Origin: a bacterium
GTDB taxonomy: Bacteria > 4484-113 > JAGGVC01
DNA length: 48,318 nucleotides
NCBI GenBank assembly: GCA_021158185.1
Contig: JAGGVC010000062.1
Location: 1-48,318 of the forward strand
Reading direction: 5' to 3'
Part shown: piece by piece, positions 2,174 to 25,083 of the stretch
Position numbering within the stretch: the stretch's first letter is position 1
How the letters are laid out: each line of letters starts with the position of its first letter
Translations under genes and position numbers: made by a program
The notes under the pieces: model-generated
What the model was told of the DNA's origin: nothing
Databases searched by the model: none
Seen by the model: only the letters and a program-made list of their open reading frames with translations

Positions 2174-2208
2174 GTAGCGTTATGTAGGAACGATGCACGG
2201 GGGTGCAG

Positions 2209-3711: not shown

Positions 3712-3749
3712 TCGACTGGATAAATATCCCTGCATTGAAAGGTTTTGCT

Positions 3750-4742: not shown

Positions 4743-4770
4743 CCGGTCGGCCATGAAGGTGGTGGCGAGT

Positions 4771-5745: not shown

Positions 5746-5762
5746 TTGGAGTTGATGATGGT

Positions 5763-6692
5763 ATGAAACTGAATAGAGGATTTACTTTGATCGAGCTGCT
5801 CGTGGTTATCGTGATCATTGGTATGCTTGTGGCAATTGCAATTCCCCAGTTTTCAAAGGTGAAGATTAAGGCAAAGGAACAGCAGGCGCTTTCCAGTTTT
5901 CTATCCGTCAACCAGGCGGTCGAACGGTTCGGTGTCGACCACAACGGCTTTTATCCTTACAGAATGCTCTTTTTCCGTAACCAGAACGAAATAGACCCAT
6001 ATGAAGTTTGCGAAGTGGCCGGATGGATGCCGATGGGATTTGTGGGCGGAGTCGATGTGATTACAACATCGGGCGAAATTAACCAGGATGCGTTCAAAAC
6101 GGTACAGCCGAGAATCGGCGGTGATCTTCCATTGCACTTCAATTCCTACTCCGACCCCCTCATCGCACTTGGCTATCTGTCGGGCGGTAAGTATCCGAGT
6201 AACCCATTCCTCAAAAGGCCGACGGGTATGATCAACTGGGCTTGGTCAAGCGAGATAGGAGTTCCCGCTACGAATGTTGCGGTTTCACCGGGCGACATCG
6301 TCTATACGTATTTCCCAGTATTAAGCGGTGATGAGTATCTGGAGCCGGAAGGGATAATCCGCGACAAGGTAGAGAGGTATCCGGTTGAAACTCCGAGCGG
6401 GCTGTTTATCGGGTGGTTTGGACTCGATCTTGTGGACAGCTATCAGATGTGGGTATACGGCAACCTTCCCGTTACCGCTGGGTGGTATACAGCATACGAC
6501 AACAGCGATTATCCGGGCCCGCCCAGGCGAGCGGTTGAGATTAAACGGGACTGGAACGGCAACGGCAGGACGGACCTTTTCGAAGCGGGCATTCTTGATT
6601 ATGCTTCGGGCGGGACGTCCGCCGATGCAAGGACTAAGAAAGAGAACTCCGGCGATCCGAACATCAATATCGGTGGCGCTGTAGAGTTCTAG
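5763..6692 (+). CDS. GspG/PilA-like pseudopilin, paralogue 2
   Basis: The leader MKLNRG|FTLIE has Glu5, and Pro22 (IAIPQF) breaks the helix as in classical pilins. The helix continues through KIKAKEQQALSSF to DHNGFYP. The rest, including YPSNPF around residue 150, is a large globular domain; total length is about 309 aa. Of the three tandem paralogues this has the most canonical N-terminal helix, so it is the best guess for the major shaft subunit (inference). ATG 5763 gives a standard leader with GGAG 11 bases upstream. GTG 5742, overlapping the previous stop, is in frame but lacks a properly spaced ribosome binding site. Confidence 0.8.
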   Translation: MKLNRGFTLIELLVVIVIIGMLVAIAIPQFSKVKIKAKEQQALSSFLSVNQAVERFGVDHNGFYPYRMLFFRNQNEIDPYEVCEVAGWMPMGFVGGVDVITTSGEINQDAFKTVQPRIGGDLPLHFNSYSDPLIALGYLSGGKYPSNPFLKRPTGMINWAWSSEIGVPATNVAVSPGDIVYTYFPVLSGDEYLEPEGIIRDKVERYPVETPSGLFIGWFGLDLVDSYQMWVYGNLPVTAGWYTAYDNSDYPGPPRRAVEIKRDWNGNGRTDLFEAGILDYASGGTSADARTKKENSGDPNINIGGAVEF

Positions 6693-6743
6693 AGAATTGG
6701 AGTGTGAAAAGCTTTGAAGCTTTCAATGACAGAGGGTGATCTC

Positions 6744-7766
6744 ATGACGAGAAAGTCAGGATTTACATTGGTAGAAATGCTTGTTGTGATTGGAATCATT
6801 GGGATTCTAATCGCTGTTATGGTCCCGCAGGTGGACCGGGTGAGAATCAAGGCGAAGGAATCGGCGACGATATCCCAAGCACAAGGGATCGAGCTTGCGA
6901 TCCAAAATTTCGCGGCCAACCATAACGGACTTTACCCCGGATCGGCGATCGACATTATGGCCCCGATACCGGAGCACGGCCTTGGCGATCCGGCCTTTGT
7001 TGCGGGCGGGAACAACTTGGTCGCTCCACCGAACTTACCTCAGCAGGGCGCGCCGGGCGTGCCCAGGTTTTCATCAGGTGTGCTCGGCGGTACGATCAAT
7101 CTTGGCGCGGTGAAAACCGTGCGCGATATAGGCAGTGCAGTCGGCCCGGACAATACACCGCGATGGTTCGACAGGCTCGTTCTCGATAATTCTCTCAGCT
7201 CATATCCGACGAATCAATTCAAGAAAGGTGCCGGCGCTGAAGTGCCCATGTACAACATCTTCCGTTACGAAGGTGAGTCAATCGATCCGCAGAGCTATTC
7301 AGTTTCCCTTACGAACTTCCGTCCGTATTTTCTCGTTTCGAATAACAATGCAGGAGTATTAACTCCCGGAAACGATCCCGGACGCGTCAGGTATTACGGA
7401 CGGGGCGGTGGAACTTTCACCGGTGCCGAATACAGTGATTTTGGACCGAATATTCTGGGGACCGATGATAATTACTTCGCGGAAGGCGATTTCGCATACG
7501 TGCCGATTATCAACAAGACCCCGTTCTCGCTCGGCGATGATCCGAATACTCCCGGGAACGATCGCTACAGGTGGAGTACGCTAGTTGACGGCTACATCTT
7601 CTTCGCGTACGGATCGAGCGAGAGGAAAGAAAGCCCTTATGCGGAGGAGCAGCAGAAGTTTTTTAGCGAAGGACTGCCCGGATTTGGCAACGCGGGTGTG
7701 GATACTCGTTACGAGGATGCAATCTACAACCTCTTTAACGGCGCGATCTATTACAGCCGCAAGTAA
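6744..7766 (+). CDS. GspG/PilA-like pseudopilin, paralogue 3
   Basis: The leader MTRKSG|FTLVE has Glu5, and Pro22 is present (VMVPQV). It is followed by RIKAKESATISQAQ and NHNGLYPG, the same pattern as the two preceding genes. The C-terminal region (to about 340 aa) is Gly/Asn/Tyr-rich and includes YPTNQF in place of YPxNPF. ATG 6744 has AGAGGG 7 bases upstream. ATG 6726 and TTG 6714 are in frame but give less typical leaders. It probably contributes to the pseudopilus shaft or gives it subunit variety. Confidence 0.8.
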   Translation: MTRKSGFTLVEMLVVIGIIGILIAVMVPQVDRVRIKAKESATISQAQGIELAIQNFAANHNGLYPGSAIDIMAPIPEHGLGDPAFVAGGNNLVAPPNLPQQGAPGVPRFSSGVLGGTINLGAVKTVRDIGSAVGPDNTPRWFDRLVLDNSLSSYPTNQFKKGAGAEVPMYNIFRYEGESIDPQSYSVSLTNFRPYFLVSNNNAGVLTPGNDPGRVRYYGRGGGTFTGAEYSDFGPNILGTDDNYFAEGDFAYVPIINKTPFSLGDDPNTPGNDRYRWSTLVDGYIFFAYGSSERKESPYAEEQQKFFSEGLPGFGNAGVDTRYEDAIYNLFNGAIYYSRK

Positions 7767-7783
7767 TGCGGAGAGTGATTCCA

Positions 7784-9451
7784 ATGAATAGAATGCATTT
7801 TGGCAAGGTAGGCGGTTTCACGATTATCGAAATGCTGATCGTGCTTTTGATTTCTGCGATCGTAATCGCGGTGCTAGGCACGGTGCTCGCATCAAGTTTC
7901 AGGATGCTGCGCTCAGGCGAAACGAGGGCGCAGCTTCAAAACACGGCCAGATCAACTCTCGATTACATCGCGTCGAACGTTGCGACCGCGAATGTAATTC
8001 CGCGCGCCTTGGATCGCGACTACGATTTCGTAGACGATGCCGACCTGAACGAATTTGGAATCGATGCCGAGTACGTCGTGGGCTGGGAGGATGCAGCAGA
8101 TCCGGATATTCACTGGTTTCCTGCCGGTACTTACATAAGCGAGGCATGGAGCGATCGAATAGTTACGAGGCATCAGGACGAGATGACGCTCGACCTTTTC
8201 GGAAGCATAAGAAACGTTCGCATGGTCCAGCCGAATCTTCTGGAATTCAATGGGCAGCGCGTATCCTCCGTGACGAGCATTTTCCGACTTGCGCTTCCAG
8301 CGCGGGATAGTACGATCTATTATCTCTCGGATAACCTGCATAACGGTCAGTACACTTCGGCTAATGTGAATTTTCCACACTCTTTTTCGGCCAAGAACAG
8401 GAGCGAGGAGTGCGTATTGTTTCACAGTATGCGGCTGGAGCTTAAACCATACACACAGGATAATGCTGCGAATCCTAATGTTGGCGTTTCGGGGGATCCG
8501 ACCGTCAAGTATTCCGACTTTGAATTCCCTGTGGCGGCGAACGTAACAAGACTTCAATTCGAGTATTTCCACAAGGTTCCTCTTTGGCTGCCAGATCCCG
8601 ACGATCCCACAACTGCATATCTCGAGGACACGAACGACAGCGGCGATTTGGATTCGCCGGTTCTGACCGGCTGGATGCTCGTTCCGATCGATGTTTCTGA
8701 CAACGAAAGATCGTTCTGGGACTATAACGACATATATCGAGACGAGAGTGTCCCCGCCGCAACGCGCGTCGCGGATTTCAACAACTGGAATGTGGAAGTG
8801 TTCTATAACGAACCTTCCCCCGACAATCCCGAGAATGCACCTTACGACTGGTTCGGATGGCTTTCGGACGGCACTTACACGAGCTTCGAGTTCGACGTGG
8901 AGGACATCATCGGGATTGATAACGGTGAGGCGCTTGCGCCGGATTACACCGAGGATTTCGGCAACTGCGACGGAATTCCCGATGGTGACGGTGTCCCAGA
9001 CAATCCCGTTCCCGCCTGGTGGCTTCCGTACCTCGAAGCTGTGCGCATCACCGTTATTACTACGCCGACGAGCATTATCGAAGAGCGCAAGCATGCGAGC
9101 GGCGTTAGGCAAGATGTAAACGGAAATCCTGTTTACTACAACCTTGACAATCCTGTTCCCTTTGCGGATTTCGCGCGCACAATTCCCCTGACCAGTGCTC
9201 ACGATCTGTTCATAGGCGAGGGCAAAGATATCGTTGTTTCGAGGATGGTTTACCCGGAATTGAGCTACCACATGACTCCCGTCATCTACCCTGACGACTA
9301 CCGGCTGTACGGAATGCGGCGAGGGGATTACAACTACGATATGGGTCGTCGGGCATCGTTTGCTGACACCGTTTCACCGGTTGATGAAGGCGGGCCTGTT
9401 GAGCCCAGGGACAGGTATTACGAGCTTGAAGCGTACGAAGATCGAAACTAG
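7784..9451 (+). CDS. GspJ/PilW-like minor pseudopilin
   Basis: The leader ends KVGG|FTIIE (Glu5), followed by a hydrophobic helix and RSGETRAQLQNTARSTLDYI, the alpha1 extension typical of PilW/GspJ. The C-terminal region is long (about 555 aa in total, against roughly 200-350 for known members) and Asp/Pro/Tyr-rich. Stretches such as DTNDSGDLDSP and DGIPDGDGVPDNP look like calcium-binding acidic loops. ATG 7784 has GGAG 10 bases upstream; ATG 7766 overlaps the previous stop and is a weaker choice. GspJ proteins sit in the tip complex with GspI and GspK, and the giant GspK-like gene is next. Confidence 0.8.
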   Translation: MNRMHFGKVGGFTIIEMLIVLLISAIVIAVLGTVLASSFRMLRSGETRAQLQNTARSTLDYIASNVATANVIPRALDRDYDFVDDADLNEFGIDAEYVVGWEDAADPDIHWFPAGTYISEAWSDRIVTRHQDEMTLDLFGSIRNVRMVQPNLLEFNGQRVSSVTSIFRLALPARDSTIYYLSDNLHNGQYTSANVNFPHSFSAKNRSEECVLFHSMRLELKPYTQDNAANPNVGVSGDPTVKYSDFEFPVAANVTRLQFEYFHKVPLWLPDPDDPTTAYLEDTNDSGDLDSPVLTGWMLVPIDVSDNERSFWDYNDIYRDESVPAATRVADFNNWNVEVFYNEPSPDNPENAPYDWFGWLSDGTYTSFEFDVEDIIGIDNGEALAPDYTEDFGNCDGIPDGDGVPDNPVPAWWLPYLEAVRITVITTPTSIIEERKHASGVRQDVNGNPVYYNLDNPVPFADFARTIPLTSAHDLFIGEGKDIVVSRMVYPELSYHMTPVIYPDDYRLYGMRRGDYNYDMGRRASFADTVSPVDEGGPVEPRDRYYELEAYEDRN

Positions 9452-9495: not shown

Positions 9496-9582
9496 TGCAT
9501 TTCCGGTAGATTCCACGGGGGATTGGGTATAACAGAATCAGCTTTACCATTTGCGTTGCGCGCTTTGCTTTGAGGTTGTTTT

Positions 9583-12500
9583 ATGAAAGAGCATAGAGAA
9601 ATCCGAACCGGAAGATGGGAAGGTATTTTTGCCCCGCCCAGGGATGAAGGGCGACAGGGATACATTCTCCTTGCAGTCATTGTTTTTATTGCCCTGCTAT
9701 TGCCGATCGTTACGCTCGTTCTTTCTACGGTCGGGCAGGAAACGATCGCGGCCAACAACCTCATTGTTGAAACGAAAACCAGGATGGCTGCGGATGCTGC
9801 CGTAAACAGCGCAATCAGCGTATTGGTCGAGCGTGAACAGATGCCGGATTATTTCGTATCGAACCTGCCGGAGCACATTAGACGCGCGATAATCGTGGAC
9901 GATAACGGTGTGCTTCGGTGGAATATCGATAACGATGGTGCAGGTCTTGATGGAATTTACGGGACTGGCGACGACTGGTACATAGGCCCTCATGGTGACC
10001 GAAAGATGATGGGGCCTTCGGTCGCTTATCCGGAATACGACCCTGATGAGCCCAGGAATTATAAAATTGATTTTCGGTACGTTAATTGGCACAAGCCGAC
10101 GTACCTTGCGGAAAACTGGGCCTGGTCGCCAACCAACCCGTTTGCATTCAACAGGGCAAGCGGACGCCCTGTCTATCTGTACAACCAATTCGCTGCGATT
10201 TACGACGACGGAACCGGAAGCGGCTTGATGTATGCCGAAGACTGGGAAGGCTATCACCCGGACGATTTCGCAATTTTCCCTCCGGACAGATGGGTGATGC
10301 CGGGATATTATCCAGGTGCTTCGCCTCCTCCCAGTACAGATATCTCAGGCACCGTTGGCGATATCGACGGTGCGGGGGACAAGGGCAGGCTTGCCAGAAG
10401 TAACATCGCTCTCTATCAGCCCAAAGTCAGCAATTTCGGTACAACGGACGATTTGAAAAACGAAGTAGCCGTCACGGACGAAGCCGGAAGGCTGAACTTG
10501 AATATTTTCTGCAAGAAGATGCCGGTTTGGGCGAGTGAGAACTCGGCAATCGATTTTGATCTTGACGGTGAATTTACGCTGGACTTCAATTACAACGAAG
10601 TCGAAGGCGAACTGATCTGGAAATGGATAGACAATCCACTGTTCCCTGACCGCGATTCCGTGATAGCGATAGGCGACGGTACCGGTAACGGTACGGATTT
10701 CAACGGCAACGAGCAGAACGAGCCCTGGCTTGGCGAGGATCTGCAGCACTATTACGCACCCGACTGGGTGGATTATGCGGATCGTAGTATCGCAATGCTC
10801 ACCGCCCTCCCAGGGATAGACGTTGAACTTGCAAAGAACATACTTCGGGCTCTCAATCCGGACCTTTCAACCCTGCCCAGCGGCTATAACCCCGATCCAT
10901 CGGGCGTTACACCGAATCCACCGGTAGATCGGCGTGCGGATGTCCCGAATCTCAGCCCGAACTTCTATGCATACTACATAGATTTCAATGCCTTCGGGCA
11001 AATAACAGGCGTTCGTTTGCTTTATGAAAACGATGCCGCGGATCCGAGTTACTCGGATTACGATCTTGACTGGGACGATATTCCACTCCCAAGGCCGCGC
11101 CCATTTACTGACATCAAGCAGCTTCTCGATATAAACGGAATGACAAAGCAGAAGTACGGAAGGCTTCAGGATTACGTGACCGTTTTCAGCTACGATACAA
11201 ACGTCATCAGTACCGAGATATGGGATTCAGAGCCTTCGAGCGGGGATGATAACGATATAAACGATGTTCGATACAACATCAACAACGTTGTAAGTCCGGC
11301 CACGCTCGCGTCGTATCGGAGTGAAGCAGACAGAATGTGGGGCTGGCTTCAGAACCACATGACCGAGACGCGTTTTAAGAAATTCACGCTTCCCATTCTT
11401 GACAGAATGGGCAATACTAGAAGCGATGTGAATCCTGGCGATCCGGATACCAACTTTCAGGATCCGGATCACACACCCTATCATCTGAATCCCGAATTTG
11501 GCTACGAAAGCCTGCTTTCGATAATCCTCTACAGAAACGGTTATCAGGCAGAAGATGCATACAGCTATGACCCGATCGACCAGTCAGGAACCGATATCAG
11601 AAGTGTGGAGCCGGGAATTCCATTCGCAAGATTCTTCGGAATATTCTTCGGCGGATTCTCCAACAGCTTCATCCCGATCCCAGAATTCCAGCCTAGCTAT
11701 GTTGCCGATCCGAGTGCAGGGCGCAATATCAATGCGCAGATTCCGCCTCACAACTTCACATCTGTTGCAGATCTCCTTGAAGTACCTCTTTACAAATTCG
11801 ACAATCTGGCCATTAGCGCCATGACCGATACGCCCAGCGCAGCGGTGTGCAACAACGGCGACGAGATTGCTGTTCAGTATCTCGTAAGTTTCAGCGACGT
11901 TATCACGAACGATGAGTACGATTCGGTGTCCGGAGAGATTCTACCGACATACACGCTGATTTTCGACTGGGACAGTGACGGCTTTATTGAAGCGGATGAT
12001 TATGAACTGACGATCGATATGACGGACGGTGTCCCCGACAACGACCTTCTGAGTTTGCGCACGCCTCCGCCAACGCCCTCACGCCCGTCGATTATCGGCA
12101 CTTTCGATCAGCCTCTCTACAATCAGCTTCAACTCGATTATCCGGGTGAACCGTGGAACTGGCGCGCGAACAACTTTATCGCGTTCAATCATACATTTAG
12201 GTACAACGCAGGTCTTGGAAATATTCCCGATCCCGATCCTGCGCGCGCAGGACAGTCGGTTGACTTCGACGGTGACGGGCGGTCCGATTTTGCGTTCGAC
12301 GCTTTCGGTGATCCGTTCATCACGGCGCGAGTTTCGGTAATCAAGAATATGACTCCTCCGGGTGGGCCGGACGACTACAGTGCGCTTCGGGCCGATACAA
12401 CAATCAAGGTTTACCTCCAACACAACTGCGAGGCGATAATCCCGCTCAAGACGAACATCCTTGCGATTCGCACTGGAAACAATACATACCAGGTGCTCAG

Positions 12501-15500
12501 TCGTTCCGCTGGTGGAAACGTTGCAAGCGGGCCTGTATATCTCTATAACTGGAATTACTCCGGTTTCCCGCATGACGACATCGTGGATGGAATCGTTACG
12601 AATCCCGCGGACTGGAGCAACCAGACAATTGCACCATCCATCACGCTTGAACCGTCTCCGGGCGGTTCTACGTCAATCGGCCTTGAGGTTTACGACATAT
12701 GGGGAGCAGATCCCGCAGCAGTATCGTTCTGGGCGGGAGCGGGTGGATTCCCATATGACTTAATCGACAGCTTCCTGACATCTGGTGACCCTGCATATGG
12801 TAATGCCGGTTCACTTGCTCCGATTAACGGCGAGAACGTTGATCTATATTTCGGTCCGCCGCCCGAACCTCCCGCGATGTGGGACAGGCTTCTTCCAAGC
12901 CAGAACTACGATCGCGATGTGGCTGAGGTATATCCGCTTTCGTTCAGCGGTGATCTCTACATCGAGCTGGCGGCGGAGCAGCCCTCGCTCTATCAGGGAC
13001 AGTACTCTGTTCTTCATGCTGCGGCATATGGCGGAAGCGGCCCCTACAGATTCGTGATTACGATCAACGGGCCGGGCGGGTATTTCGATTCGTTCGATTC
13101 AGGATTCATCGGCTCGAATACCTACAACATCGAGACCGAGGAACTCACCGGCGGCGGTGTGTACAACGTGCAGCTTACGGTGACCGATTCGAGCACGCCT
13201 GCTCCGCTTGTCAAGTCGCTGCCTGCTCCCGAAACTATCCAAGTAGGATCCAGTTCCATCGATACAGAGCTTTACATAAACGTACCTAATCTTACGGTGA
13301 GCGCAAAGGTGATGCCGTACGAGAGTGACAATCCGGCCAACACGCGCTCTTTCCTTGGCGTGGCGAGTGTAAGCGGTGGGCGCTCGAATTACCTCATAAG
13401 GTGGGATGTTCGTCGCGAAGACGGGAGCATTGTCAACCAGAATTACGGTGATCCTCCCGGTATCAATCCAACAGGCCAGATGATGACGTACACGCACCAG
13501 GGAGAGGCTGCTGTATTCACATTCGATCCCACAAACACATCGGACGGATTGTACTTTGTGTATTGCAATGTTATTGACTCGGCTGGGATCAACCCGAATC
13601 TTGCCGATAGTACGCTTGCAACGGATATTGTGCCGATACTTCTGTCGAGCTCATCTGCGCTTGATCCTGAACCGCGAGTTCTCCCCTCGATCTATGCAAG
13701 TCCTCCGGGTAATGATTATTCGGGAACAAGGCGTGCAAGTGTGCCGGGTTCTGCAACGCTTGGCGGTCCGCCGCAAATCGGCACGTTCAGTTTTGCGACG
13801 CCGCATAACTCAATCGAGCCGAGGATTGCGCCTCCTGGCAGCATTATCGAAATCCGCGGAGTCAATTTCAATACAATTCCTTCGAACAACCGCGTAGCCT
13901 TTGAACCGGGAATGAGTACATCTCCGTTCAGCGTTCAGACCGAGATTGTTGGAGGCCCCGGAAGCCCGGATCTCCAAGTGATGAGGGTGGTCGTTCCTGA
14001 AGGCGCGAGAAGCGGTTTCGTAGTGATCACGGACATCACAACAGGTGGCGCAAGTCAGGCCGCGAACCGCGACAGCTTCTTCAATACGAACTGGGAAGTG
14101 AGCTTCGATCTCTACGCCATTCATAAGGATACGTACAGCGAGGGAATCGAGCAGACTTATAGGTACGACGTTGACTTCCAGGGCGATGGGGTTTTCGACT
14201 GGTCGATCCAAACGAGCAATCTAGAGATTCTTGCCGAGAACCACGCAGGCCTTACACACGATTATTCCAGGGATGGCGTGGGTAATTACCAGGCCACGGT
14301 TATGGTGACGAACGTTATCTCACAAAAGGTCGGTGTAAGCCACCAGCTCGTTCAGATGCGCGACCTTGTTGATTATGCGCTTACCGAAGAAAGCCAGGTC
14401 GAAGCAACAGGTCTCAGCGTCAACATCCTGCCCGATTTCAGGCGCAGACAGCCGCTTCCGAATGAAGCCCTGACGATTAAGAGTTTTGCCGACGGCGTTA
14501 CGAATTCTCTCGGCCTCGGCTACAAGTGGAATCTGGACAGCAACTCGCGTGTCAGCGCTTTTATGGCGAGGGATATCGTCCAGACGCTTCCGTTCTTTAC
14601 TTCCACGCCGACGTTCATCACGAGTGACGTGATCGTGGAGAGCTTTATCGATGCGAAATGGGCCACTACGGACACGCCTGTTGACGTTGTAATCAAAGTG
14701 AAGTACCCGTTCAGCCTCAACGAACCGGCGGAGCCTGGGCTCTTTTTCGATGTTGGAAGCGAGTGCAGCACGTTCATAGTAAATATGGCCGATGGCGGCG
14801 CGCCGATCACTGTAAGAGGAGTTGTTGTTGAAACCGGTCCGAATTACAGTATTGAAGAGGCTCGCTTCACATATAGCTTCACAAATACCGACGGCGCCGG
14901 CGAATCGCATAGACCAACGTTCACGGCGCTCACAGGCTGGGGCGAGATTATGCCGGGGCCAATTACTGGAAGCGTATTTCCGATGCCGCGCATCAGGATC
15001 AGCAACTATCTAACGAACCTTACCCTTGATCCGACGACTATGCATCAGGGATTTATATATACTATCACTGATGTTATGAAGCAGATTCCGAACGATCCTC
15101 CGTATATGCAGGATCCGACATTCTGCATCTCGGGTAATCATGTAAACGAATTTCCGCCTGGCAGAGAGTTCTATGTGATCGAAGCCGCTGGCGGAAACGA
15201 CGGCACATATCATGTGCTGTCATCAAGCTACAACGCTGGTACCGGTAATACCGAGATAATTATTGTGGAGAAGATCCAATCTGCGGTCGTCAGTGGCAAG
15301 ATTATCTACTACATCACCGATGAAATCGTCGCGAACATCTACGATGGCAGGCAGCACTATCTTGGCTTGTCGGTTGTTTATGAGAGACTTATCAGCGGCG
15401 AAACGAGCTGGGTCGAGGCGACGGACTCGATTATTCTTCCGATTGTGCAGCGGAGCTCGAACAACGTTCACAGCTATCTCGCCTTTGACGAATCGTATTC

Positions 15501-18500
15501 GCTTAGCCACGGAACAGGGGCTGTCGAATTCAACATGCTCGGCATTCTTGGTGTAAGCTCAACGCTCGACTATAAGAGCGACATCAACTCCGACGGCAGA
15601 GTGGATATCGGCGGCGCGGTTTATCCGAACCCGCACACACTTTCGATACCGCTTCGAAATACGCTTAACCCACTGACAACCTGGCCGACATCGCAGCCAA
15701 TGTACGGATGGCACGATCAGATTCCAGGTGTACCTCAGTATATGATCGGGCAAGTGCCCGTGCCCTATGTTGCGGATCGCGGCATTTACAATTCCTGGGC
15801 ACTGGTCACTGAGACGCTCGGTGGAACGATTACGCCGAGAACAAGAAACATAGCCGTTGATACCCAGGAAATAATGGTGGGCGGCAGGCGAAGTTCTACT
15901 GGAATCGTGACGCAGCCTCCGTTCGCAGTGGATGCATTCGTCGATCCGCTGCTCGGCACGGCAAGCCAGACCTACATTTTACAGAGCTTCGTGTCCGGCG
16001 GTGACGAGCCGTATACGTATCTTTGGGAAGTGTTCTATAACAATGGGGGAACCTGGGAGCAGATTTTCCTGAACGAGGGCCAGGAGAATATGGCACAGAG
16101 CTACTTCACGCCAGATTTCGATGCCATGGATGAGTTTACAGGCGGCACGATACCTCAGATCGAAGGTGAATACAGAATTGACCTGACGGTGGCCGATTCG
16201 AGCGGCGTCAATATACCGATCACTGACACGCAGTACATTCGAATCCTCGACCTTGAGCTTTACGCACAGCTCTTTGTGAATCCGCCTGCCGGAACGTTCG
16301 ATCAAAGCCTCGATTTCTGGGTGTACGTGGACGGCGGAAGGCCGCCATATACCTTAATGATCGATTTCGGCGACGGTACGCCTATCCTGACCCGTACCGA
16401 CGTTACTGATCAGCTCGCGTTCTTCACTCATTCCTATTCAGGTCCCATAGCGGGTACATACAACGCCAAGATCGAGGTCATAGATGATAGCGGCGCATAC
16501 GTGGGAGGCGTGTCCACCGGGCATGGTGCGGTAGCTGACGGCACGAATAACTACGACGAGGAAGTCGCAGTCGGCGACAGGATTCCTCTCAATATAAGCT
16601 TGATGGCTACACCTGTGAGCGGTGTCGACGCCTTCCCTGTTCAGGTTCATTACGCGGTTGGGGGCGGCGTGAAGGGCGCAGGATTCTTCGGCGATGCAGC
16701 CGGCGGGTATGTGGTCGGTTTGGTTCTGTTGAATGACGACGGTGTTCTTGTCGATTCGTGGAACGGCACCGGCGCCAACACCTTCGGTGCGGATGGATTA
16801 CCCGACACGAGCACGATTGCGAGCAGGCCTCCTATCATCCATCCTCCGGGATTATCAGGCGACCCGTTGACTTCTTTTGCAAACGCCGACAGGCCGATTA
16901 CCTTGTTTGTGCCCGGCTCGGGTAAGTACTACCTGCAGGCTGTCGTGCTAGACGGTGACTTCGAGCTGGCCTTCAATCAGGTCGTGATTTACTCGGAGGG
17001 ATACGTCGCACCTGCTGTATACGACGGGCTTGGTACGCCAAGGGTGAGATACACGCTTGAGCCTGAAGATCCGACAGACGGAGGCAGCGATCTTGTTGAA
17101 AAGCCGCTTCATGCGGTCAGGCTCTGGGTGGATCCGCTTTACGACCCGTATGCGGGTACTTACCCGGACAGTCACAGCAACGATGTTCGCCTGCTGGAGA
17201 CCGACCTCCAGATTCTCGGCGAGCTCTTCACGGTTGATCCGAATTCGAATATCTTCTTCTCCAGCGACTTCAGTCCGGTGGAAGATCCGCTTGAAGCGCA
17301 TAAATACGATATCTCCCTTGTCTCAGATCCCAGTTCTTACCAGGACGAGGACTTACAGGATTTCTACGACACTTACACCTTCGGCAGAATAAACATCAAT
17401 ACTGCTCCTGAGGAAGTTCTTGCCGCGGTGTTTATGAATATCGTTGTCGAGCGGGCGTACTACTACACGGACAATCCTGCTGATTCTGACTATTGGAAGA
17501 ACGGACAACGCAACTACGCGGCCGATGTGATGATTTCCTATAGCGAAGCCCGTTCGCTCGCAAGAGCGGTTGTCGACTACCGCAACAGCTACTACGATGC
17601 TCAGATGCCTGCGGTGCCTGGTTATGGCAACTTCGACCTCGGCACGGATAACATACGCGTGAGTCACTTGCCTGTGATAGGTCCTTGGGACGGTGCAAAC
17701 CCGCACGAGTATGAGAACGACGACCGCGATGCCGACTTACCAACATTCGATGACGGCGATGTTGATAACATGTACGACAACTATTCCGGCAACTACTACA
17801 ACCTTGATGACGGCGCGTACAAGTTCTATGCGCCAAGTGACATTGCATATGTCAGAGAGCAGTTTACCGGCGAAACCGATGAGGACTATGCCAAGTATCT
17901 TAACTATGTAATGGATAACTCAGGTTCGGATACTGATCTCGGCTTTGATGCACGCTACTACTTTACCTACAACGAAAATACCGAAACGATCGAGGGTGCC
18001 CGCAATCGCATGGCGGTGATCAGAAATTCAGACAGTGAAGGCAACGAGCATGTGGCGTTCAGCTTCATACCCAACCCTCCGTTCCAGAGCGCATACGACC
18101 TCTGGAAAGTCGTTGGTTCTGCGGAGGACTTCGTTCTGCTCGATCCTGATCCGCAGGACTTCTCGATCGATCCGAATACCGGGCGTCCGGACTATGATGA
18201 ATCATCCATGGATACGATAGGCGACGACGACATCGGAAACGTGAGGACGTTCAGCGGTCCCTCGGTGTTCCGCTATGTCGAGCGCTGGGTACCGGGCGAC
18301 GGCACCGAACATTCAGTCAAGGGTCGCTACGAAGTTGTGATGAACTACCTTGCGGATATCGAACCTTACATTACGACGAGAAGCTACGTCTTCAGAATTG
18401 AGGGCAAGGGCGTCATTCCCACATCCGGTTCTGGAGCAGGAAACGCCTTCCAGACTGGAAGGACAAGCCGTGACAGGAACGTTCTGGCTATTGTGGATGT

Positions 18501-18624
18501 AGGTCCGCTTGGTACCAGCCCCGAGCCCGGCATGTTAGACTTCTTCGGAATGGATGTTTCGAGACGCCTCACTCACAAGGTTATTTACAGGCAGGATGTA
18601 AGAATGGATGAGGGAGGCTTCTAG
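9583..18624 (+). CDS. Giant GspK-like minor pseudopilin with PKD/Ig-like repeats
   Basis: At 3013 aa this is about nine times a normal GspK. After a 26-residue leader ending RQG|YILLA comes a hydrophobic helix lacking Glu5; absence of Glu5 is a known feature of GspK, the tip pseudopilin. GspK-type segments follow: DEAGRLNLN (about residues 299-307), ALPGIDVELAKNIL (about 408-421) and a helix-hairpin-helix-like PFTDIKQLLDINGMT (about 506-520). Some 2000 residues of beta-rich sequence come next: an IPT/TIG-like segment near 1415-1445 and PKD-like modules near 1526 and 2255 (FGDGT...GTYNAKIEVIDDSG). Asp-rich loops such as DINSDGRVDIGG (near 2000) look calcium-binding. GspK-like features return with GRININTAPEEVL near 2602 and a C-terminus ending VIYRQDV. 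GAGG lies 7 bases before ATG 9583. It may be an extracellular or periplasmic tip adhesin or cargo receptor (inference). Confidence 0.8.
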   Translation: MKEHREIRTGRWEGIFAPPRDEGRQGYILLAVIVFIALLLPIVTLVLSTVGQETIAANNLIVETKTRMAADAAVNSAISVLVEREQMPDYFVSNLPEHIRRAIIVDDNGVLRWNIDNDGAGLDGIYGTGDDWYIGPHGDRKMMGPSVAYPEYDPDEPRNYKIDFRYVNWHKPTYLAENWAWSPTNPFAFNRASGRPVYLYNQFAAIYDDGTGSGLMYAEDWEGYHPDDFAIFPPDRWVMPGYYPGASPPPSTDISGTVGDIDGAGDKGRLARSNIALYQPKVSNFGTTDDLKNEVAVTDEAGRLNLNIFCKKMPVWASENSAIDFDLDGEFTLDFNYNEVEGELIWKWIDNPLFPDRDSVIAIGDGTGNGTDFNGNEQNEPWLGEDLQHYYAPDWVDYADRSIAMLTALPGIDVELAKNILRALNPDLSTLPSGYNPDPSGVTPNPPVDRRADVPNLSPNFYAYYIDFNAFGQITGVRLLYENDAADPSYSDYDLDWDDIPLPRPRPFTDIKQLLDINGMTKQKYGRLQDYVTVFSYDTNVISTEIWDSEPSSGDDNDINDVRYNINNVVSPATLASYRSEADRMWGWLQNHMTETRFKKFTLPILDRMGNTRSDVNPGDPDTNFQDPDHTPYHLNPEFGYESLLSIILYRNGYQAEDAYSYDPIDQSGTDIRSVEPGIPFARFFGIFFGGFSNSFIPIPEFQPSYVADPSAGRNINAQIPPHNFTSVADLLEVPLYKFDNLAISAMTDTPSAAVCNNGDEIAVQYLVSFSDVITNDEYDSVSGEILPTYTLIFDWDSDGFIEADDYELTIDMTDGVPDNDLLSLRTPPPTPSRPSIIGTFDQPLYNQLQLDYPGEPWNWRANNFIAFNHTFRYNAGLGNIPDPDPARAGQSVDFDGDGRSDFAFDAFGDPFITARVSVIKNMTPPGGPDDYSALRADTTIKVYLQHNCEAIIPLKTNILAIRTGNNTYQVLSRSAGGNVASGPVYLYNWNYSGFPHDDIVDGIVTNPADWSNQTIAPSITLEPSPGGSTSIGLEVYDIWGADPAAVSFWAGAGGFPYDLIDSFLTSGDPAYGNAGSLAPINGENVDLYFGPPPEPPAMWDRLLPSQNYDRDVAEVYPLSFSGDLYIELAAEQPSLYQGQYSVLHAAAYGGSGPYRFVITINGPGGYFDSFDSGFIGSNTYNIETEELTGGGVYNVQLTVTDSSTPAPLVKSLPAPETIQVGSSSIDTELYINVPNLTVSAKVMPYESDNPANTRSFLGVASVSGGRSNYLIRWDVRREDGSIVNQNYGDPPGINPTGQMMTYTHQGEAAVFTFDPTNTSDGLYFVYCNVIDSAGINPNLADSTLATDIVPILLSSSSALDPEPRVLPSIYASPPGNDYSGTRRASVPGSATLGGPPQIGTFSFATPHNSIEPRIAPPGSIIEIRGVNFNTIPSNNRVAFEPGMSTSPFSVQTEIVGGPGSPDLQVMRVVVPEGARSGFVVITDITTGGASQAANRDSFFNTNWEVSFDLYAIHKDTYSEGIEQTYRYDVDFQGDGVFDWSIQTSNLEILAENHAGLTHDYSRDGVGNYQATVMVTNVISQKVGVSHQLVQMRDLVDYALTEESQVEATGLSVNILPDFRRRQPLPNEALTIKSFADGVTNSLGLGYKWNLDSNSRVSAFMARDIVQTLPFFTSTPTFITSDVIVESFIDAKWATTDTPVDVVIKVKYPFSLNEPAEPGLFFDVGSECSTFIVNMADGGAPITVRGVVVETGPNYSIEEARFTYSFTNTDGAGESHRPTFTALTGWGEIMPGPITGSVFPMPRIRISNYLTNLTLDPTTMHQGFIYTITDVMKQIPNDPPYMQDPTFCISGNHVNEFPPGREFYVIEAAGGNDGTYHVLSSSYNAGTGNTEIIIVEKIQSAVVSGKIIYYITDEIVANIYDGRQHYLGLSVVYERLISGETSWVEATDSIILPIVQRSSNNVHSYLAFDESYSLSHGTGAVEFNMLGILGVSSTLDYKSDINSDGRVDIGGAVYPNPHTLSIPLRNTLNPLTTWPTSQPMYGWHDQIPGVPQYMIGQVPVPYVADRGIYNSWALVTETLGGTITPRTRNIAVDTQEIMVGGRRSSTGIVTQPPFAVDAFVDPLLGTASQTYILQSFVSGGDEPYTYLWEVFYNNGGTWEQIFLNEGQENMAQSYFTPDFDAMDEFTGGTIPQIEGEYRIDLTVADSSGVNIPITDTQYIRILDLELYAQLFVNPPAGTFDQSLDFWVYVDGGRPPYTLMIDFGDGTPILTRTDVTDQLAFFTHSYSGPIAGTYNAKIEVIDDSGAYVGGVSTGHGAVADGTNNYDEEVAVGDRIPLNISLMATPVSGVDAFPVQVHYAVGGGVKGAGFFGDAAGGYVVGLVLLNDDGVLVDSWNGTGANTFGADGLPDTSTIASRPPIIHPPGLSGDPLTSFANADRPITLFVPGSGKYYLQAVVLDGDFELAFNQVVIYSEGYVAPAVYDGLGTPRVRYTLEPEDPTDGGSDLVEKPLHAVRLWVDPLYDPYAGTYPDSHSNDVRLLETDLQILGELFTVDPNSNIFFSSDFSPVEDPLEAHKYDISLVSDPSSYQDEDLQDFYDTYTFGRININTAPEEVLAAVFMNIVVERAYYYTDNPADSDYWKNGQRNYAADVMISYSEARSLARAVVDYRNSYYDAQMPAVPGYGNFDLGTDNIRVSHLPVIGPWDGANPHEYENDDRDADLPTFDDGDVDNMYDNYSGNYYNLDDGAYKFYAPSDIAYVREQFTGETDEDYAKYLNYVMDNSGSDTDLGFDARYYFTYNENTETIEGARNRMAVIRNSDSEGNEHVAFSFIPNPPFQSAYDLWKVVGSAEDFVLLDPDPQDFSIDPNTGRPDYDESSMDTIGDDDIGNVRTFSGPSVFRYVERWVPGDGTEHSVKGRYEVVMNYLADIEPYITTRSYVFRIEGKGVIPTSGSGAGNAFQTGRTSRDRNVLAIVDVGPLGTSPEPGMLDFFGMDVSRRLTHKVIYRQDVRMDEGGF

Positions 18625-18664
18625 AAAGTCTCCCGCGAAGTGATTTTTTAACGAAAACTAAGGA

Positions 18665-18695
18665 AACGGGGAATCTTTGGATTCTCCGTTTTTTT
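18665..18695 (+). terminator. Rho-independent terminator after the giant pseudopilin gene
   Basis: An 11-bp stem with one G-U pair (left arm ending GGGGAATC, right arm GATTCTCCG) and a TTTG loop is followed by an uninterrupted T tract at 18689-18695. It ends the pseudopilin unit and separates it from the secretin unit. Confidence 0.85.
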
Positions 18696-18726: not shown

Positions 18727-18755
18727 TTGACATGAAAGCTCGATATACTTACAAT
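18727..18755 (+). promoter_or_regulatory. Strong sigma70-type promoter of the secretin operon
   Basis: A perfect TTGACA at 18727-18732 and TACAAT at 18750-18755 are separated by 17 bases. Transcription should begin near 18762, giving a leader of about 100 bases before the GTG start at 18864. Confidence 0.85.
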
Positions 18756-18863: not shown

Positions 18864-21800
18864 GTGAATCGTAAAAGATTTGCGCGGCACATCGGTCGTG
18901 TGCTGACGAGTGTATCGTTTGTAAGCATGCTGCTGGTAGTGTTCGCTTTTTCGGCATTTGCTGGCCAAATAGCGGATGTTTCCGTTAAGGGTCTTCCCGA
19001 CCGCGACCTGGTCATTTTCAGGGCGGACAAGGATATGACACAGCCTGATATGGTGGTTCAAAAGCTTCTGCCTACGAGGTTGGAAGCCGTATTTATGAAC
19101 TACTCGACGGCTGACATTGACACATCGGCTTTGAAATCCGGTCTAGTCAACAATGTACAGCTTATTCCCCAGGATGATCGGGTTGTTGTGATTATTCAAC
19201 TTGATCACCAGGGAAAAGCGAATCCGGAGATGTTCCGTTGGAGCACCCCTCGCACAGGGATTTGCGTTCTTGAAGTCTTCCATCCGACTTCGGATCGTTC
19301 TACTCTTTCAGACTCCGTTTTTCCATCCACATCCGCTCCGGCTGCATCTGCTCCGGCGGAAGTGGAAGCACCAAGCTCTGAAGATACAGAGATTGCCGCG
19401 GTTCCGAGGATTCCCGAACCGGTATCGAGAATCAATTCCATTACATTCGACAAGGATACCAACACGATCATCGCGAGCTTGAGCGCGGGTGTTGAGCCTG
19501 TTGTGAAACAGGGAAAATTCCCGCCTTCGCTGACGGTTCAGTTCCCCGGCGCAGCCCTTGCTAGCGGTGTCCCGACCTTTGTCGCGAAGTACCACGAACG
19601 GATACTGCATATCACAACTCGTGAAGTTACTCGAGCAAGCGGGATCGTGGAGATGAGCGAGATTTTGATCGTTTTCACAAAAGGTCCCGATGCTAAATAC
19701 ACCCTCGATTTATTGGACGGCGGTACGCGTGTTGAGATCGCACTTACCAACATCGAGAAGCCGAAGCTTGTGGAAGAATCTCCTGTACCCGACGAGGCGG
19801 TCTCTGAAGTTCCGGAAGTTGCAGTTGAGCCTGAGACGACCATCGAGACACCTGTCGAAGTGATCGCTGAAGTGCCAACTGTGGAAACCGAGACTCCGGG
19901 ATTCGAGGAATCGGTCGTAGTGACGCCTGTTTCGGGAAGGGTGCTCAGCGCAGTGTACAATCCTGATGCGCAGACTCTCGATATCATTACAGACAAGCCC
20001 TCCACCGTCACAGCGAAGCGCGAGAACTTCCCTCCGGGTTACACGATCCTTGTGGATCTCGCTCCTTCCGATGATCTTCCGACCACGATTGCGAAATTCA
20101 AGCCTGGAATGCAGTGGATTTCTGCAAGCGGGTACACTGTTGACGGAAGCGAACATACAAGATTCGTAGTGCAGTTCGCTAACAGCGTCAACTGGACGCT
20201 CGGTTCATTGAGCGACTCAGACGATGGGTGCGGGCACACGATTCACTTCAACGATGCTATGGAATCTCCGTCCTCCGAGATTTCAGTATCAGCTCCTGAA
20301 GAAGCTGCTGTTGAAGAGGCCGAAGCACCTTCGGTTGAAGATCTTTTTGTTATCCCGGACGAATCTGCTCCGACCGATGAATATCTGGCTGCGGGAGACA
20401 GTTCGTCTCTGAGCGCTCCTACCATGGACGAGATTGCTGGTGGCGACACTCGCGGGTCCGATAACGAAACCAACAAAGAAGAGGAATACGACGAGTTTCC
20501 CCAGTACGACATCGAGGAGTTCTCAGAAAGAGGAGGAACATATGTTCTTCCTGAAATGGAAGGTATGAAAGACCAGCTTTCCGATGTTCTTGTTACGCTT
20601 CCGCGCGGGATCTCCCTGTATTCCGCACTTGATATTATGAGCCAGGTTTCGGGAATAAGCATTATTCTCGATCCTTACTGGAATCAGCCTCCAACAGGCG
20701 CAGGCCCGAATAATCGCGCTCCACTCGACACTCTCGGTCCGGGGCAAGGCTTCGGCGGAGGAGCTGGTTTCCGTGAGGCGGGTGCATTTAACCCGATTAC
20801 ATACGAGCAGGGCCTTGCTGTCCAGGGCAACTTTGTTGATGTTCCTTTCGATGTTGCTCTTAAGCTCCTTCTCGATAGCAACAATCTCAGGAAGAAGATC
20901 TATCGAGACGAGAGTGACCCATATTCAAAGCCCATCGTTTTCGTCACGAGCCGTGAGAGAATCGAGCACGAGCTCAAGGGAGCGAATGAGGTGGAGCTGT
21001 ACCAGCTTCATTACGCAGACCCAAATCAGATCGTACAGATTCTTCTGAACCTTGACATCCTCCCCAGCGTTAATGTTGGATATTACACGTACCAGGGCCG
21101 TGGCTCCGGAGGCTATGGCGGTGGCAGTTCCGGAGGCTATGGCGGCAGCGGCGGCTACGGTAGCGGTGGTAGTGGTTCTGGCGGCAGTGGCGGTGGAAGC
21201 TACAGGTCGTTCAATGTTCCCGGTGGCGATATCGCTCAGTCCTACTTCGCTGGCGGGCCCACGCAGGGCGGCGGCGGCAGTGTCGGCCAGGGCGGCAGCG
21301 GCGGTGGACGCAGTGGCGCTGGTGGCGGTGCCGGTGGTGGTGGCACCGGTGGTGTTGGAGGTGCCGGTGGTGCAGGCGGTGCAATCCCGCTCGCTACTGC
21401 GAAGAGCGGATTAATTATTATGCGCGGCACGCGTGAAACGCTTGAGCTTGCAAAAGACATCATCCGCAAGGTTGACAAACCTCCGAAACAGGCGAGTCTC
21501 AAAGTCACAATCTATACAGTCACCGAAAGCCCGCAGGTTGTTTACGGGCTCGTTAGCGGCTCGGCCAACAAGGATCGTACCTTCTGGGATTATGCAGGCG
21601 GTTCGCTCAGCCTGATTGTCCCGCCCAAGGGAGGCATTATTCCTGCGGACAACTATACCGTTGCCTTTGAAGCCCTTCAGACCGAACGCAAGGCAAAGGT
21701 GATCAACCAGACCGAAATCGCGGTCATTGATGGATTACCTGCAAATATCGAATTTTCAAGAACCCGCGGTAATTTCCGTACCCAGGTTACATTCGACGCG

Positions 21801-22202
21801 AACGGAAATGCTTTCCGCACAGGTACGTTTGACGAGATTACAGCGGATACGAGCCTTGACTTCCTGCCGCAGATCGACGACTTTGGGCGTATCACGCTCC
21901 AGTTCTCCCCTGATGTGACCGTATTCGACGGTCCGCCTCAGGTTGCTGATGACGGACAAGGCGGAGATGTAACATTCCAGCCGACAACGACAACAACTCT
22001 TGACACGGTACTTCGCCTGCAGGATGGCGAGACGGCGCTCATCGGCGGTCTTATGATTGAGACTGCGAGTGATGACGTCGAGAAGGTACCGATTCTGGGT
22101 GATCTTCCCTTTATCGGCGCCATCTTCTCGCATCACCAGAAGAGCCGCGAGACGAGCTACATCTTCGTGACAATCACGGCTACGATCATCGATGATAAGT
22201 AG
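18864..22202 (+). CDS. Secretin of the PilQ/GspD family with glycine-rich insertion
   Basis: A signal peptide (residues 1-34, ending AFAG) is followed by AMIN-like beta modules at about 37-150, 190-295 and 355-470. These are linked by Pro/Glu-rich acidic spacers, and AMIN domains anchor PilQ-type secretins to peptidoglycan. From about 574, LPRGISLYSALDIMSQVSG and LDVPF-like segments form the N0/N1 region, with QLHYADPNQIVQILLNL near 715. A Gly/Ser-rich insertion covers roughly 747-840. The conserved beta-barrel follows, with VLRLQDGETALIGGLM near 1048 and VPILGDLPFIGAIF near 1075, the secretin signature. At 1112 aa it is long. It would form the outer-membrane pore for the pseudopilus or pilus. 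The GTG start has AGGAGGA 8 bases upstream. It heads an operon with the PilM-N, PilO and PilP genes. Confidence 0.9.
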   Translation: MNRKRFARHIGRVLTSVSFVSMLLVVFAFSAFAGQIADVSVKGLPDRDLVIFRADKDMTQPDMVVQKLLPTRLEAVFMNYSTADIDTSALKSGLVNNVQLIPQDDRVVVIIQLDHQGKANPEMFRWSTPRTGICVLEVFHPTSDRSTLSDSVFPSTSAPAASAPAEVEAPSSEDTEIAAVPRIPEPVSRINSITFDKDTNTIIASLSAGVEPVVKQGKFPPSLTVQFPGAALASGVPTFVAKYHERILHITTREVTRASGIVEMSEILIVFTKGPDAKYTLDLLDGGTRVEIALTNIEKPKLVEESPVPDEAVSEVPEVAVEPETTIETPVEVIAEVPTVETETPGFEESVVVTPVSGRVLSAVYNPDAQTLDIITDKPSTVTAKRENFPPGYTILVDLAPSDDLPTTIAKFKPGMQWISASGYTVDGSEHTRFVVQFANSVNWTLGSLSDSDDGCGHTIHFNDAMESPSSEISVSAPEEAAVEEAEAPSVEDLFVIPDESAPTDEYLAAGDSSSLSAPTMDEIAGGDTRGSDNETNKEEEYDEFPQYDIEEFSERGGTYVLPEMEGMKDQLSDVLVTLPRGISLYSALDIMSQVSGISIILDPYWNQPPTGAGPNNRAPLDTLGPGQGFGGGAGFREAGAFNPITYEQGLAVQGNFVDVPFDVALKLLLDSNNLRKKIYRDESDPYSKPIVFVTSRERIEHELKGANEVELYQLHYADPNQIVQILLNLDILPSVNVGYYTYQGRGSGGYGGGSSGGYGGSGGYGSGGSGSGGSGGGSYRSFNVPGGDIAQSYFAGGPTQGGGGSVGQGGSGGGRSGAGGGAGGGGTGGVGGAGGAGGAIPLATAKSGLIIMRGTRETLELAKDIIRKVDKPPKQASLKVTIYTVTESPQVVYGLVSGSANKDRTFWDYAGGSLSLIVPPKGGIIPADNYTVAFEALQTERKAKVINQTEIAVIDGLPANIEFSRTRGNFRTQVTFDANGNAFRTGTFDEITADTSLDFLPQIDDFGRITLQFSPDVTVFDGPPQVADDGQGGDVTFQPTTTTTLDTVLRLQDGETALIGGLMIETASDDVEKVPILGDLPFIGAIFSHHQKSRETSYIFVTITATIIDDK
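21103..21380 (+). repeat. Glycine-rich coding repeat within the secretin gene
   Basis: Degenerate GGC/GGT/AGC triplets dominate, with a near-exact duplication of a unit encoding SGGYGG at 21106-21150. Further GGxG and GGA runs extend to 21380. It encodes a flexible low-complexity segment of about 90 residues inserted in the N-domain region of the secretin. Such tracts are prone to length change. Confidence 0.6.
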
Positions 22203-22298: not shown

Positions 22299-24242
22299 TT
22301 GGCGATTCGCAAGAAAGCGTTAAAGGTGATGGATATCGGGCTTGACCTGACGAGCGACGAGTTGCGCGTGATCGGGTTGTCCCGACACGGCAAGGAATAC
22401 GTGCTGGAGAAGTTCGCTATTGGCCCAATCCCAAGCTCCGTTTTTGCAGCAGGAAAAGTAGCTGAGCCAAGGGAGCTTGCAGCGAAAATCGGAGAAATCT
22501 GTACTGCCAATGGCATTAGGCCGAAGCGTGCGATGGTGTCGCTTTCAGGTAAGGCGGCAATAACTCGAATTGTCGAGCTCCCCAAGATGGGGTTTGCTCA
22601 GACACGTCAGGCAATAGATCTTCAGATCAACCAGTACGTGCCGTTCCCGCCGGGCGATACCGTATACCAATTCAAGACCCTTCCTCCCTCGGCAGGCTCG
22701 AATCCTGCGATGCAGGAAGTGCTTCTTGTGGCAACGCGCAGGAGTACGGTGGACAGCCTGATTCAAACTCTGCGGTTTCTCAAAGTGGAGCCGGGCGGCA
22801 TCAAGATTACGAGTCTTGCCGCAAGCAGGCTGATTCTCCCAAGACTTGAAGGATATACGCAGACAGCGTGTTTCATTGATATTCGCGATTCGGTAACCGA
22901 CCTGTCCTTCTTCTTGAACGGTAACTTCCGGCTGTCACGGCCTATCGAGCTTGGATACAACAGCATCATCGCAAAAGTATCACAAGCTCTCAGCGTCAGT
23001 AATGCTGAAGCCGAGGAGCACCTGAGGAACGAGCCGGTTGACTTGGCCTTGCCGGAGGAAGAAGTTGATGAAACCGAAGACAACCGGATGCGGGAAGCAC
23101 TGCTTCCAATCTTCAGCAATTTCATCAGCGAGCTGATTAGAAGTGTACGGTATTACGAATCTCAGGCGCAGAGGAGCGACAGAGTAGGCAAGCTGTTTGT
23201 CTACGGCAATGTTCAGATTTTCAAGAACCTTGACCGCTACATCGAGCAGCAGACCGGCCTTGAGGTGAGCATCCTTTCTGTTACAAGCCTGGTGACAACG
23301 TTGCAGGGCGTCTATTCTCTTGAGCTTCTGCGCGAGCATGCCGAGAAGCTTGTCGTGAGCGCTGGGCTCGCTGCAGACCTTGTCGGCAAAGGCAAGCCGG
23401 AACTCAACCTGATGCCACAGAGCTATTACCTCAAGCAGCGCGCTTGGGGTGTTGTTGCCGGAGGCGTTGTCATGCTCTTGATAATGCTCATGGTATTCTG
23501 GTATCAGCTCGGTAGGCTCGATGCAAGAATCGGCGATCAGGAGAAGCAGTTAACGAAGCTACAGCAGGAAGAAATGAAATGGAAGGGCGATGCTGAAAGA
23601 TACGAGCAGGTCAAGCAGGAAATTTCCGAGAACATTCCGAAGATAAACCAGGTTTTCAACCTTGTAAAAGAGCAACCCATCTGGCCGCCTCTTCTTGCTG
23701 AGCTCGGTGCGGTTACGCCTGACACTGTGTACCTTGATGAAGTTACATTCAATGCCAGCGATTACTTGATTTCCGTTCATGGCTACGCTGTATCGAGATG
23801 GGACATCATGCTTTACTGCCTGTCCATCGACCATTCAAACCTATTTGTTATGGGCGAAATTACAGAGTCCGAGATGGGTGAGGGTGGAGAAGGCGGTGGT
23901 GGCGGCGGCAGCGGCAGAGCAAGTCAGGCAACAATGGGAGGCGGCGATGTTGGCGTCGGAGCAAAGATTCCCGGCGCTGGTGGCGTCAATTCCACTGGCC
24001 TGCAAAGCATAGTTGATTCTGCAAGCCGTATGCCTATGGATGAATTCCGTCCGCCCAGATGGACGGGAAGGCCGGGACATAACATAGATGATTTCTTTGG
24101 CCCTCCGCCCTGGGAGCGGCGACCATCGAAATGGGAGTTTGATATCACGATTAATGTCCAAAAAGAAGGCAAGCAGCAGCCAGAAGCCGTAGCACCGCTT
24201 GATAGGTGGCAGGAGGTGGTGGATGATGTCATCAACACGTAG
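22299..24242 (+). CDS. PilM-PilN fusion protein (GspL-like architecture)
   Basis: Residues 1 to about 360 form a PilM-type actin-like domain: MDIGLDLTSDELRVIGL near 10-26, a second IDIRDSVTDLSFF segment near 191, and PFPPGDTVYQF in between. A single membrane helix (about 383-403, GGVVMLLIMLMVFW) follows, then a coiled coil (about 407-440) and a PilN-like periplasmic domain. Gly-rich (about 527-563) and Pro-rich stretches interrupt that domain before it ends with a beta strand. PilM is normally a separate cytoplasmic protein binding the N-terminal tail of PilN; the fusion resembles GspL of type II secretion. It would couple the motor to the periplasmic alignment complex. The TTG start has AGGAGG 8 bases upstream. 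The end overlaps the PilO-like gene. Confidence 0.85.
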   Translation: MAIRKKALKVMDIGLDLTSDELRVIGLSRHGKEYVLEKFAIGPIPSSVFAAGKVAEPRELAAKIGEICTANGIRPKRAMVSLSGKAAITRIVELPKMGFAQTRQAIDLQINQYVPFPPGDTVYQFKTLPPSAGSNPAMQEVLLVATRRSTVDSLIQTLRFLKVEPGGIKITSLAASRLILPRLEGYTQTACFIDIRDSVTDLSFFLNGNFRLSRPIELGYNSIIAKVSQALSVSNAEAEEHLRNEPVDLALPEEEVDETEDNRMREALLPIFSNFISELIRSVRYYESQAQRSDRVGKLFVYGNVQIFKNLDRYIEQQTGLEVSILSVTSLVTTLQGVYSLELLREHAEKLVVSAGLAADLVGKGKPELNLMPQSYYLKQRAWGVVAGGVVMLLIMLMVFWYQLGRLDARIGDQEKQLTKLQQEEMKWKGDAERYEQVKQEISENIPKINQVFNLVKEQPIWPPLLAELGAVTPDTVYLDEVTFNASDYLISVHGYAVSRWDIMLYCLSIDHSNLFVMGEITESEMGEGGEGGGGGGSGRASQATMGGGDVGVGAKIPGAGGVNSTGLQSIVDSASRMPMDEFRPPRWTGRPGHNIDDFFGPPPWERRPSKWEFDITINVQKEGKQQPEAVAPLDRWQEVVDDVINT

Positions 24243-25065: not shown

Positions 25066-25083
25066 TAATGGAGGTGCTTTGAT

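Follow-up and report, generated by a model that had tools for sequence, protein, structure and literature searches.

Why would a GspK-type pseudopilin, a protein that normally has about 330 residues, be nine times longer in a bacterium of a little-known candidate phylum? The gene that raises this question (9583-18624, + strand) lies in a 48,318-nucleotide stretch of contig JAGGVC010000062.1, here called the window, and encodes in a single unbroken frame a K protein of 3013 residues, referred to below as P0001 or giant K. The initial annotation had read this protein as a tip pseudopilin whose halves are separated by an inserted adhesin or cargo-binding array. In line with that reading, the profile comparisons presented here give good support, at the level of sequence, to an array inserted in a tip pseudopilin of GspK type, and the excess over the usual length is explained by a long string of Ig-like domains with a variable middle sitting inside the tip protein.

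Both ends of giant K match GspK in the same order

We compared P0001 with GspK using hhalign, taking as reference a profile of 34 GspK-like frames drawn from PF03934 matches in unrelated genomes and as query an alignment of full and partial orthologs. The protein opens with a prepilin leader (residues 1-26; 9583..9660, +), for which cleavage is expected at G26|Y27, G26 being invariant in the aligned orthologs. This is followed by the N-terminal pilin helix (residues 27-80; 9661..9822, +), which matches GspK with P 1.7e-8 over residues 21-100 (0.18 when reversed). The helix lacks Glu5, as first annotated; residue +5 is Ala in seven of the eight readable orthologs, P0001 included, and Val in the eighth. 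The presumed first pilin beta strands (residues 81-284; 9823..10434, +) are conserved in orthologs, with a mean pairwise identity of 40% across the block 21-284, and give no detectable match to the GspK profile (P 0.54). The SAM/HHH segment corresponding to the first half of the GspK alpha-domain (residues 285-545; 10435..11217, +), with DEAGRLNLN at residue 299 and GMTKQKYGRLQDYVTVFSYDTNV, matches GspK columns 119-235 (P 4e-9; reversed control 0.45).

At the other end of the protein, the second half of the alpha-domain (residues 2591-2760, GRININTAPEEVL; 17353..17862, +), in which INTAPEEVL is found at residue 2605, is matched by PF03934 and by the GspK profile (P 1.3e-8 over residues 2575-2760). 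The C-terminal pseudopilin strands (residues 2761-3013, YITTRSYVFRIEGKG...DRNVLAIVDVG; 17863..18621, +) match GspK with P 1.2e-4, the GspK proteins that carry a lamin tail domain (LTD) with P 1e-5, and three relatives of 1,526-1,617 residues with P 1e-10. The template columns matched by the four pieces (helix 5-67, first half 119-235, INTAP 240-260, C-end 293-341) ascend in order, so the matches are colinear. On the 353-residue template the first-domain match stops at column 235 and the INTAP match begins at 240, leaving about 5 residues between them in a normal GspK, versus about 2,060 in P0001.

The comparison of both ends with GspK that had been proposed from the sequence alone thus gave a match at each (P 1.2e-4 or better), and the description of the frame as one with GspK-like ends holds (P 4e-9 to 1e-4, with negative reversed controls). 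Reversed sequences of the P0001 pieces gave P 0.18-0.6, and the H, G and J pseudopilins encoded nearby matched the same profile far more weakly (P 0.002-0.006). By these profile measures the GspK resemblance of P0001 is not due to chance. Family models by themselves are too weak to decide the matter: in Pfam, HHH-like and T2SSK_1st matches at 501-535 and a T2SSK match at 2603-2625 all fall below the gathering cut-off (T2SSK_1st alone, 15.0 bits against 26.2), and PF03934 scores 19 bits in a plain scan and 25.8 in a genome-level search that includes the neighbours in frame, with a cut-off of 24.2. The NCBIfam T2SS_GspK model matches residues 501-540 (E 3e-9) below its equivalog cut-off. Because the equivalog NF037980 reaches 36.8 bits on P0001 and requires 130, the protein is called GspK-type here and not a GspK equivalog. 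Searching the Protein Data Bank by sequence with each of the ends returned nothing relevant, and AlphaFold2, run separately on residues 1-800 and 2480-3013 with alignments of 8 and 7 rows, yielded poor models (pLDDT 33 and 36).

An acidic array of PKD/Ig-like domains lies within the alpha-domain

The first alpha-domain half is followed by a block (residues 546-760; 11218..11862, +) with a mean pairwise identity of 41%, as in the core. This block, which ends in FTSVADLLEVPLYKF, gives no significant match to GspK-type profiles (P 0.07-0.13), and we tentatively regard it as probably one more SAM-like domain belonging to the core. Since its conservation equals that of the core, the insert is placed at about 761-2580 (11863..17322, +; about 1,820 residues). 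The initial annotation was right about the presence of a foreign array and placed its start, at residue 560, too early; that the array is inserted between two GspK-type halves is upheld by the colinear matches, their controls and relatives that have another guest, or none, at this junction. Neither half of the insert matches the GspK profile (residues 770-1700, P 0.65; 1700-2570, P 0.33). The insert is strongly acidic (pI 4.2; 140 Asp and 80 Glu versus 83 Lys and Arg) and contains 4 Cys.

Iterated HMM searches identified six PKD/Ig-like domains in the insert, which bears out the PKD-like segments described earlier; the TIG-like part of that description is reduced to one weak match. Domains 1 (residues 1124-1206; 12952..13200, +; E 1e-15) and 2 (1253-1335; 13339..13587, +; E 2e-16) are followed by the TIG/IPT-like domain (1409-1475; 13807..14007, +; Pfam TIG below cut-off) and by domain 3 (1517-1576; 14131..14310, +; E 5e-11). 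Beyond a variable centre (1581-2110; 14323..15912, +), which has no Pfam match in P0001, come domains 4 (2111-2208; 15913..16206, +; E 4e-23), 5 (2224-2305; 16252..16497, +; E 1e-21, also matched by Pfam PKD_4) and 6 (2333-2458; 16579..16956, +; E 1e-14). DxDxDG-like loops occur in P0001 at residues 324, 795, 894 and 2000 (DFDLDG, DWDSDG, DFDGDG and DINSDG) and, judging by the motif, could bind calcium.

Giant K recurs in nearly all sampled genomes of its class

A search of 60 relatives with the C-terminal part gave matches in eight genomes besides this one, every one from the same class, and an N-terminal profile run on 385 genomes recovered the same eight. Orthologous frames of 2,839-3,761 residues are unbroken in six of them (G001, G002 and G004-G007), which rules out an assembly or frame artefact. 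In G003 the ortholog reaches the contig end at 3,621 residues, and in G008 it lies in pieces on two contigs; none was found in G009, a genome that is 77% complete. With one exception, then, every genome sampled from the class has giant K, and the architecture is not peculiar to the window.

In the readable orthologs the six PKD-like domains occupy equivalent positions. Conservation is lowest in the centre (mean identity 28%, compared with 32-40% for the flanking PKD blocks and 50% for the INTAP half), which ranges from 423 to 1224 residues across orthologs. It contains a PD40 match in the G003 ortholog, and in G004 it includes about 260 residues that are absent from its congener G006. This pattern of conserved flanks around a variable middle suggests a stalk topped by an apex that binds.

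The cluster combines a GspH/I/J/K-like pseudopilin set with a PilM-type platform

Directly upstream of K lie six other pseudopilins in the order H-I-G-G-G-J (2203..9451, +), with N_methyl, GspH, GspI, GspG and N-terminal family matches; I was assigned by TIGR01707 below its cut-off, and J by position and leader. Glu5 is present in five of the six, and the five checked carry GF[TS]xxE. Downstream of K follow a secretin of 1112 residues (18864..22202, +; PF00263, E 5e-31), a PilM-PilN fusion of 647 residues (22299..24242, +; PF11104 and PF05137, with TIGR01175 above cut-off) and two small membrane proteins (24199..25926, +), which occupy the PilO and PilP positions of the conserved cluster and have no family match above cut-off. 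The H-I-G-G-G-J order is preserved in relatives, as is the order pseudopilin-secretin-PilMN wherever the contig allows, so that the GspHIJ-like neighbourhood anticipated for the gene is both present and recurrent. A protein similar in size to the PilM-PilN fusion comes after the secretin in relatives.

The secretin falls below the cut-offs of the NCBIfam GspD, MshL and PilQ models (GspD, 85.9 against 351). About 700 residues precede its Secretin_N match and contain no known domain. A type II secretion system would have a GspD secretin and a GspL/GspM/GspC platform; the cluster has instead this secretin and a platform protein that is a PilM above cut-off. A prepilin peptidase (A24) is encoded elsewhere in the genome (L049:4108-5097), and GspE, PilT and GspF are encoded together at another locus. 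Because a second, PilBTCAMNOPQ-like pilus locus in the class has a set of its own, the GspE-PilT-GspF locus by elimination probably serves the K cluster. Pfam detected no match to PF05567 (PilY1/PilC tip adhesin) in P0001; a PF05567 search of ten genomes was likewise empty, but its positive control also matched nowhere.

A hairpin of 13 pairs lies between J and K (9465-9498, +; -29.8 kcal/mol, z -5.1), a long terminator-like hairpin with a U run lies 3' of K (about 18659-18694, +), and a near-consensus sigma-70 site (TTGACA-17-TACAAT) lies upstream of the secretin (18727-18755). Given these hairpins before and after the gene and the promoter-like site before the secretin, K may form its own transcription unit; sigma-70-type sites in the region overall show no excess over shuffles.

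Right after the cluster, at 25979-29598 (+), are genes for a Proton_antipo_M protein and a Wzy_C protein of the O-antigen ligase type, and genes of similar size come next in G004 and G007; that this pair glycosylates the filament would be a guess. The window also encodes a second outsized surface-filament protein, a flagellin of 1143 residues (39253-42684, +) in which about 900 residues separate Flagellin_N (6-142) from Flagellin_C (1057-1142).

Other lineages carry different guests at the same junction

A PF03934 search of 385 genomes gave, among the matches listed, GspK-like frames outside the class of up to about 650 residues. Two longer frames matching PF03934 outside the class were rejected on reading, one of 1036 residues being a TPR/HHH protein and one of 1472 residues a DNA polymerase. 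Six more GspK-like proteins, 636-1,026 residues long, were examined, and five of them (L087, L089, L102, L103 and L105, the last with a match below the Pfam cut-off) carry an LTD ahead of the INTAP half. Against the GspK profile this LTD-type set gives one continuous alignment (E 7e-41). Like P0001, these proteins hold a beta-sandwich guest ahead of the INTAP half; here the guest is a lamin tail domain and the lineages are different ones.

The N-terminal profile search of the 385 genomes also recovered three K proteins that belong to other families and are 1,526-1,617 residues long (L107:859-5709, L108:2759-7336 and L109:6877-11664). As far as their contigs show, the genes stand in the same J-K-secretin-PilM order, and the proteins share with giant K the helix (P 4e-9), the INTAP half (P 1.4e-7) and the C-end (P 1e-10). 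Their interrupting segment is smaller, at about 490 residues; PD40 matches it in L107 alone, and in L108 and L109 it looks propeller-like by eye. Some relatives carry nothing at the GspK junction. LTD, PD40 or propeller-like and PKD segments are all found there, and the same GspK region has therefore received different guests, which suggests, from sequence comparison, that the tip protein is a holder of an interchangeable binding device. Three other GspK-like proteins of 920-1,308 residues (L039:3938-7855 and L040:8879-12802, both from Planctomycetota, and L106:3572-6331) have a long C-terminal extension past the pilin part and no internal guest.

Comparison with known tip pilins

The leader and the helix without Glu5 are common to P0001 and GspK, as is the order of the DExxGKxNLN-containing SAM/HHH half, the INTAPEEVL half and the C-terminal strands. 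In both, the gene directly follows that of a J-like pseudopilin. Giant K differs from GspK in having nearby a PilM-PilN platform and a secretin below family cut-offs.

The initial annotation knew of no characterised GspK of this kind, and the papers we searched for outsized GspK, for GspK in Planctomycetes and for pilins with LTD or PKD domains likewise contained no such description; precedents nevertheless make the protein less isolated than that statement implied. ComZ of Thermus thermophilus is a GspK-like tip pilin that has a large beta-rich internal insertion and binds DNA (PMC6561018). Like P0001 it holds a large beta-rich domain inside its fold, and it has been proposed to be a tip receptor, but its insert is a beta-solenoid of about 380 residues between the last two strands (PMC6561018), unlike the roughly 1,820 residues of PKD/Ig-like domains within the alpha-domain of P0001. 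Modular pilins are widespread, the largest case named in a survey having 860 residues (PMC8179133), and P0001, a pilin module with an extra non-pilin module, is one of them. PilB and PilC of Streptococcus sanguinis similarly bear binding modules on a minor pilin for tip display; their binding module is placed after the pilin module (PMC8179133), unlike the internal insert of P0001.

A proposed tip-display mechanism and its alternatives

We propose, with a probability of roughly 0.6, that P0001 is a tip pseudopilin in a type IV filament machine and that its alpha-domain acts as the socket into which a binding module fits. The machine would comprise H-I-G-G-G-J-K, the secretin, PilMN, the PilO/P-like proteins and probably GspE-PilT-GspF. 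The prepilin peptidase would cleave K, which would then cap the filament together with I and J. It is established for GspK that a pseudopilin without Glu5 can only start or cap a filament, and by analogy the absence of Glu5 would restrict the K of this cluster to those roles. The alpha-domain would project from the tip and hold the guest at one junction; the insert leaves and re-enters the same small domain, so the array would have to be a closed loop or a folded-back stalk. With K, the array would enter or traverse the secretin, and the variable centre would bind a ligand, whether a surface, a polysaccharide or secreted cargo. The sequences show the architecture, how it is conserved, the junction and the gene context; that K sits at the tip and that the array is exported and binds a ligand is inferred.

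The pseudopilus of a T2SS is believed to remain periplasmic, and a role as a surface adhesin would then be unlikely unless the filament here extends. The array might instead recruit cargo in the periplasm or gate a T2SS-like machine without ever reaching the surface, collecting exoproteins or contacting the long N-domain of the secretin. A GspH/I/J/K-like set adjoining a secretin would suit such a device, as would the unassigned stretch preceding Secretin_N; a PilT-type ATPase beside GspE/GspF and a PilM-PilN-like platform are instead more typical of pili that extend and retract, and 1,820 residues, perhaps 15-20 domain-sized units, would be long for the periplasm. We consider this reading unlikely, and surface display seems the likelier role on account of PilT and the length of the array.

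The ComZ precedent (PMC6561018) raises the question of whether P0001 is likewise a receptor for DNA uptake, and ComEC in nine of the ten genomes searched, together with a ComEA-like protein in the host genome, would accord with this. The acidity of the insert speaks against it, as do the separate PilBTCAMNOPQ-like locus in the class and the variation of the centre from genus to genus, something not needed for binding DNA; we judge such a function highly improbable. HHH motifs are common and the Pfam scores of the giant are weak, but that an unrelated giant surface protein gained these motifs and a pilin leader independently is scarcely credible when four distinct segments each match GspK and follow its order, three other families share the J-K-secretin-PilM order and LTD-type GspK, which aligns to the GspK profile as a whole, is interrupted likewise.

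Returning to the tip-display mechanism, a wider version of it can be put forward, which is possible but rather doubtful: the GspK alpha-domain junction would be a general socket for exchangeable guests (lamin-tail, propeller-like or PKD/TIG loop) on the tip pseudopilin of secretin-PilMN machines in several bacterial lineages, making GspK a covalent equivalent of PilY1, and in the present case a closed loop of about 1,820 residues with conserved flanks and a variable middle would be exposed on the cell exterior by a filament able to retract. The series seen at one junction, from no guest through LTD and propeller-like segments to the giant PKD array, suggests a mounting point for tip functions. 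If this is true, pseudopilins can bear arrays far beyond the 860 residues of the largest pilin in the published survey (PMC8179133), a point that matters for deciding whether these machines serve secretion, adhesion or both.
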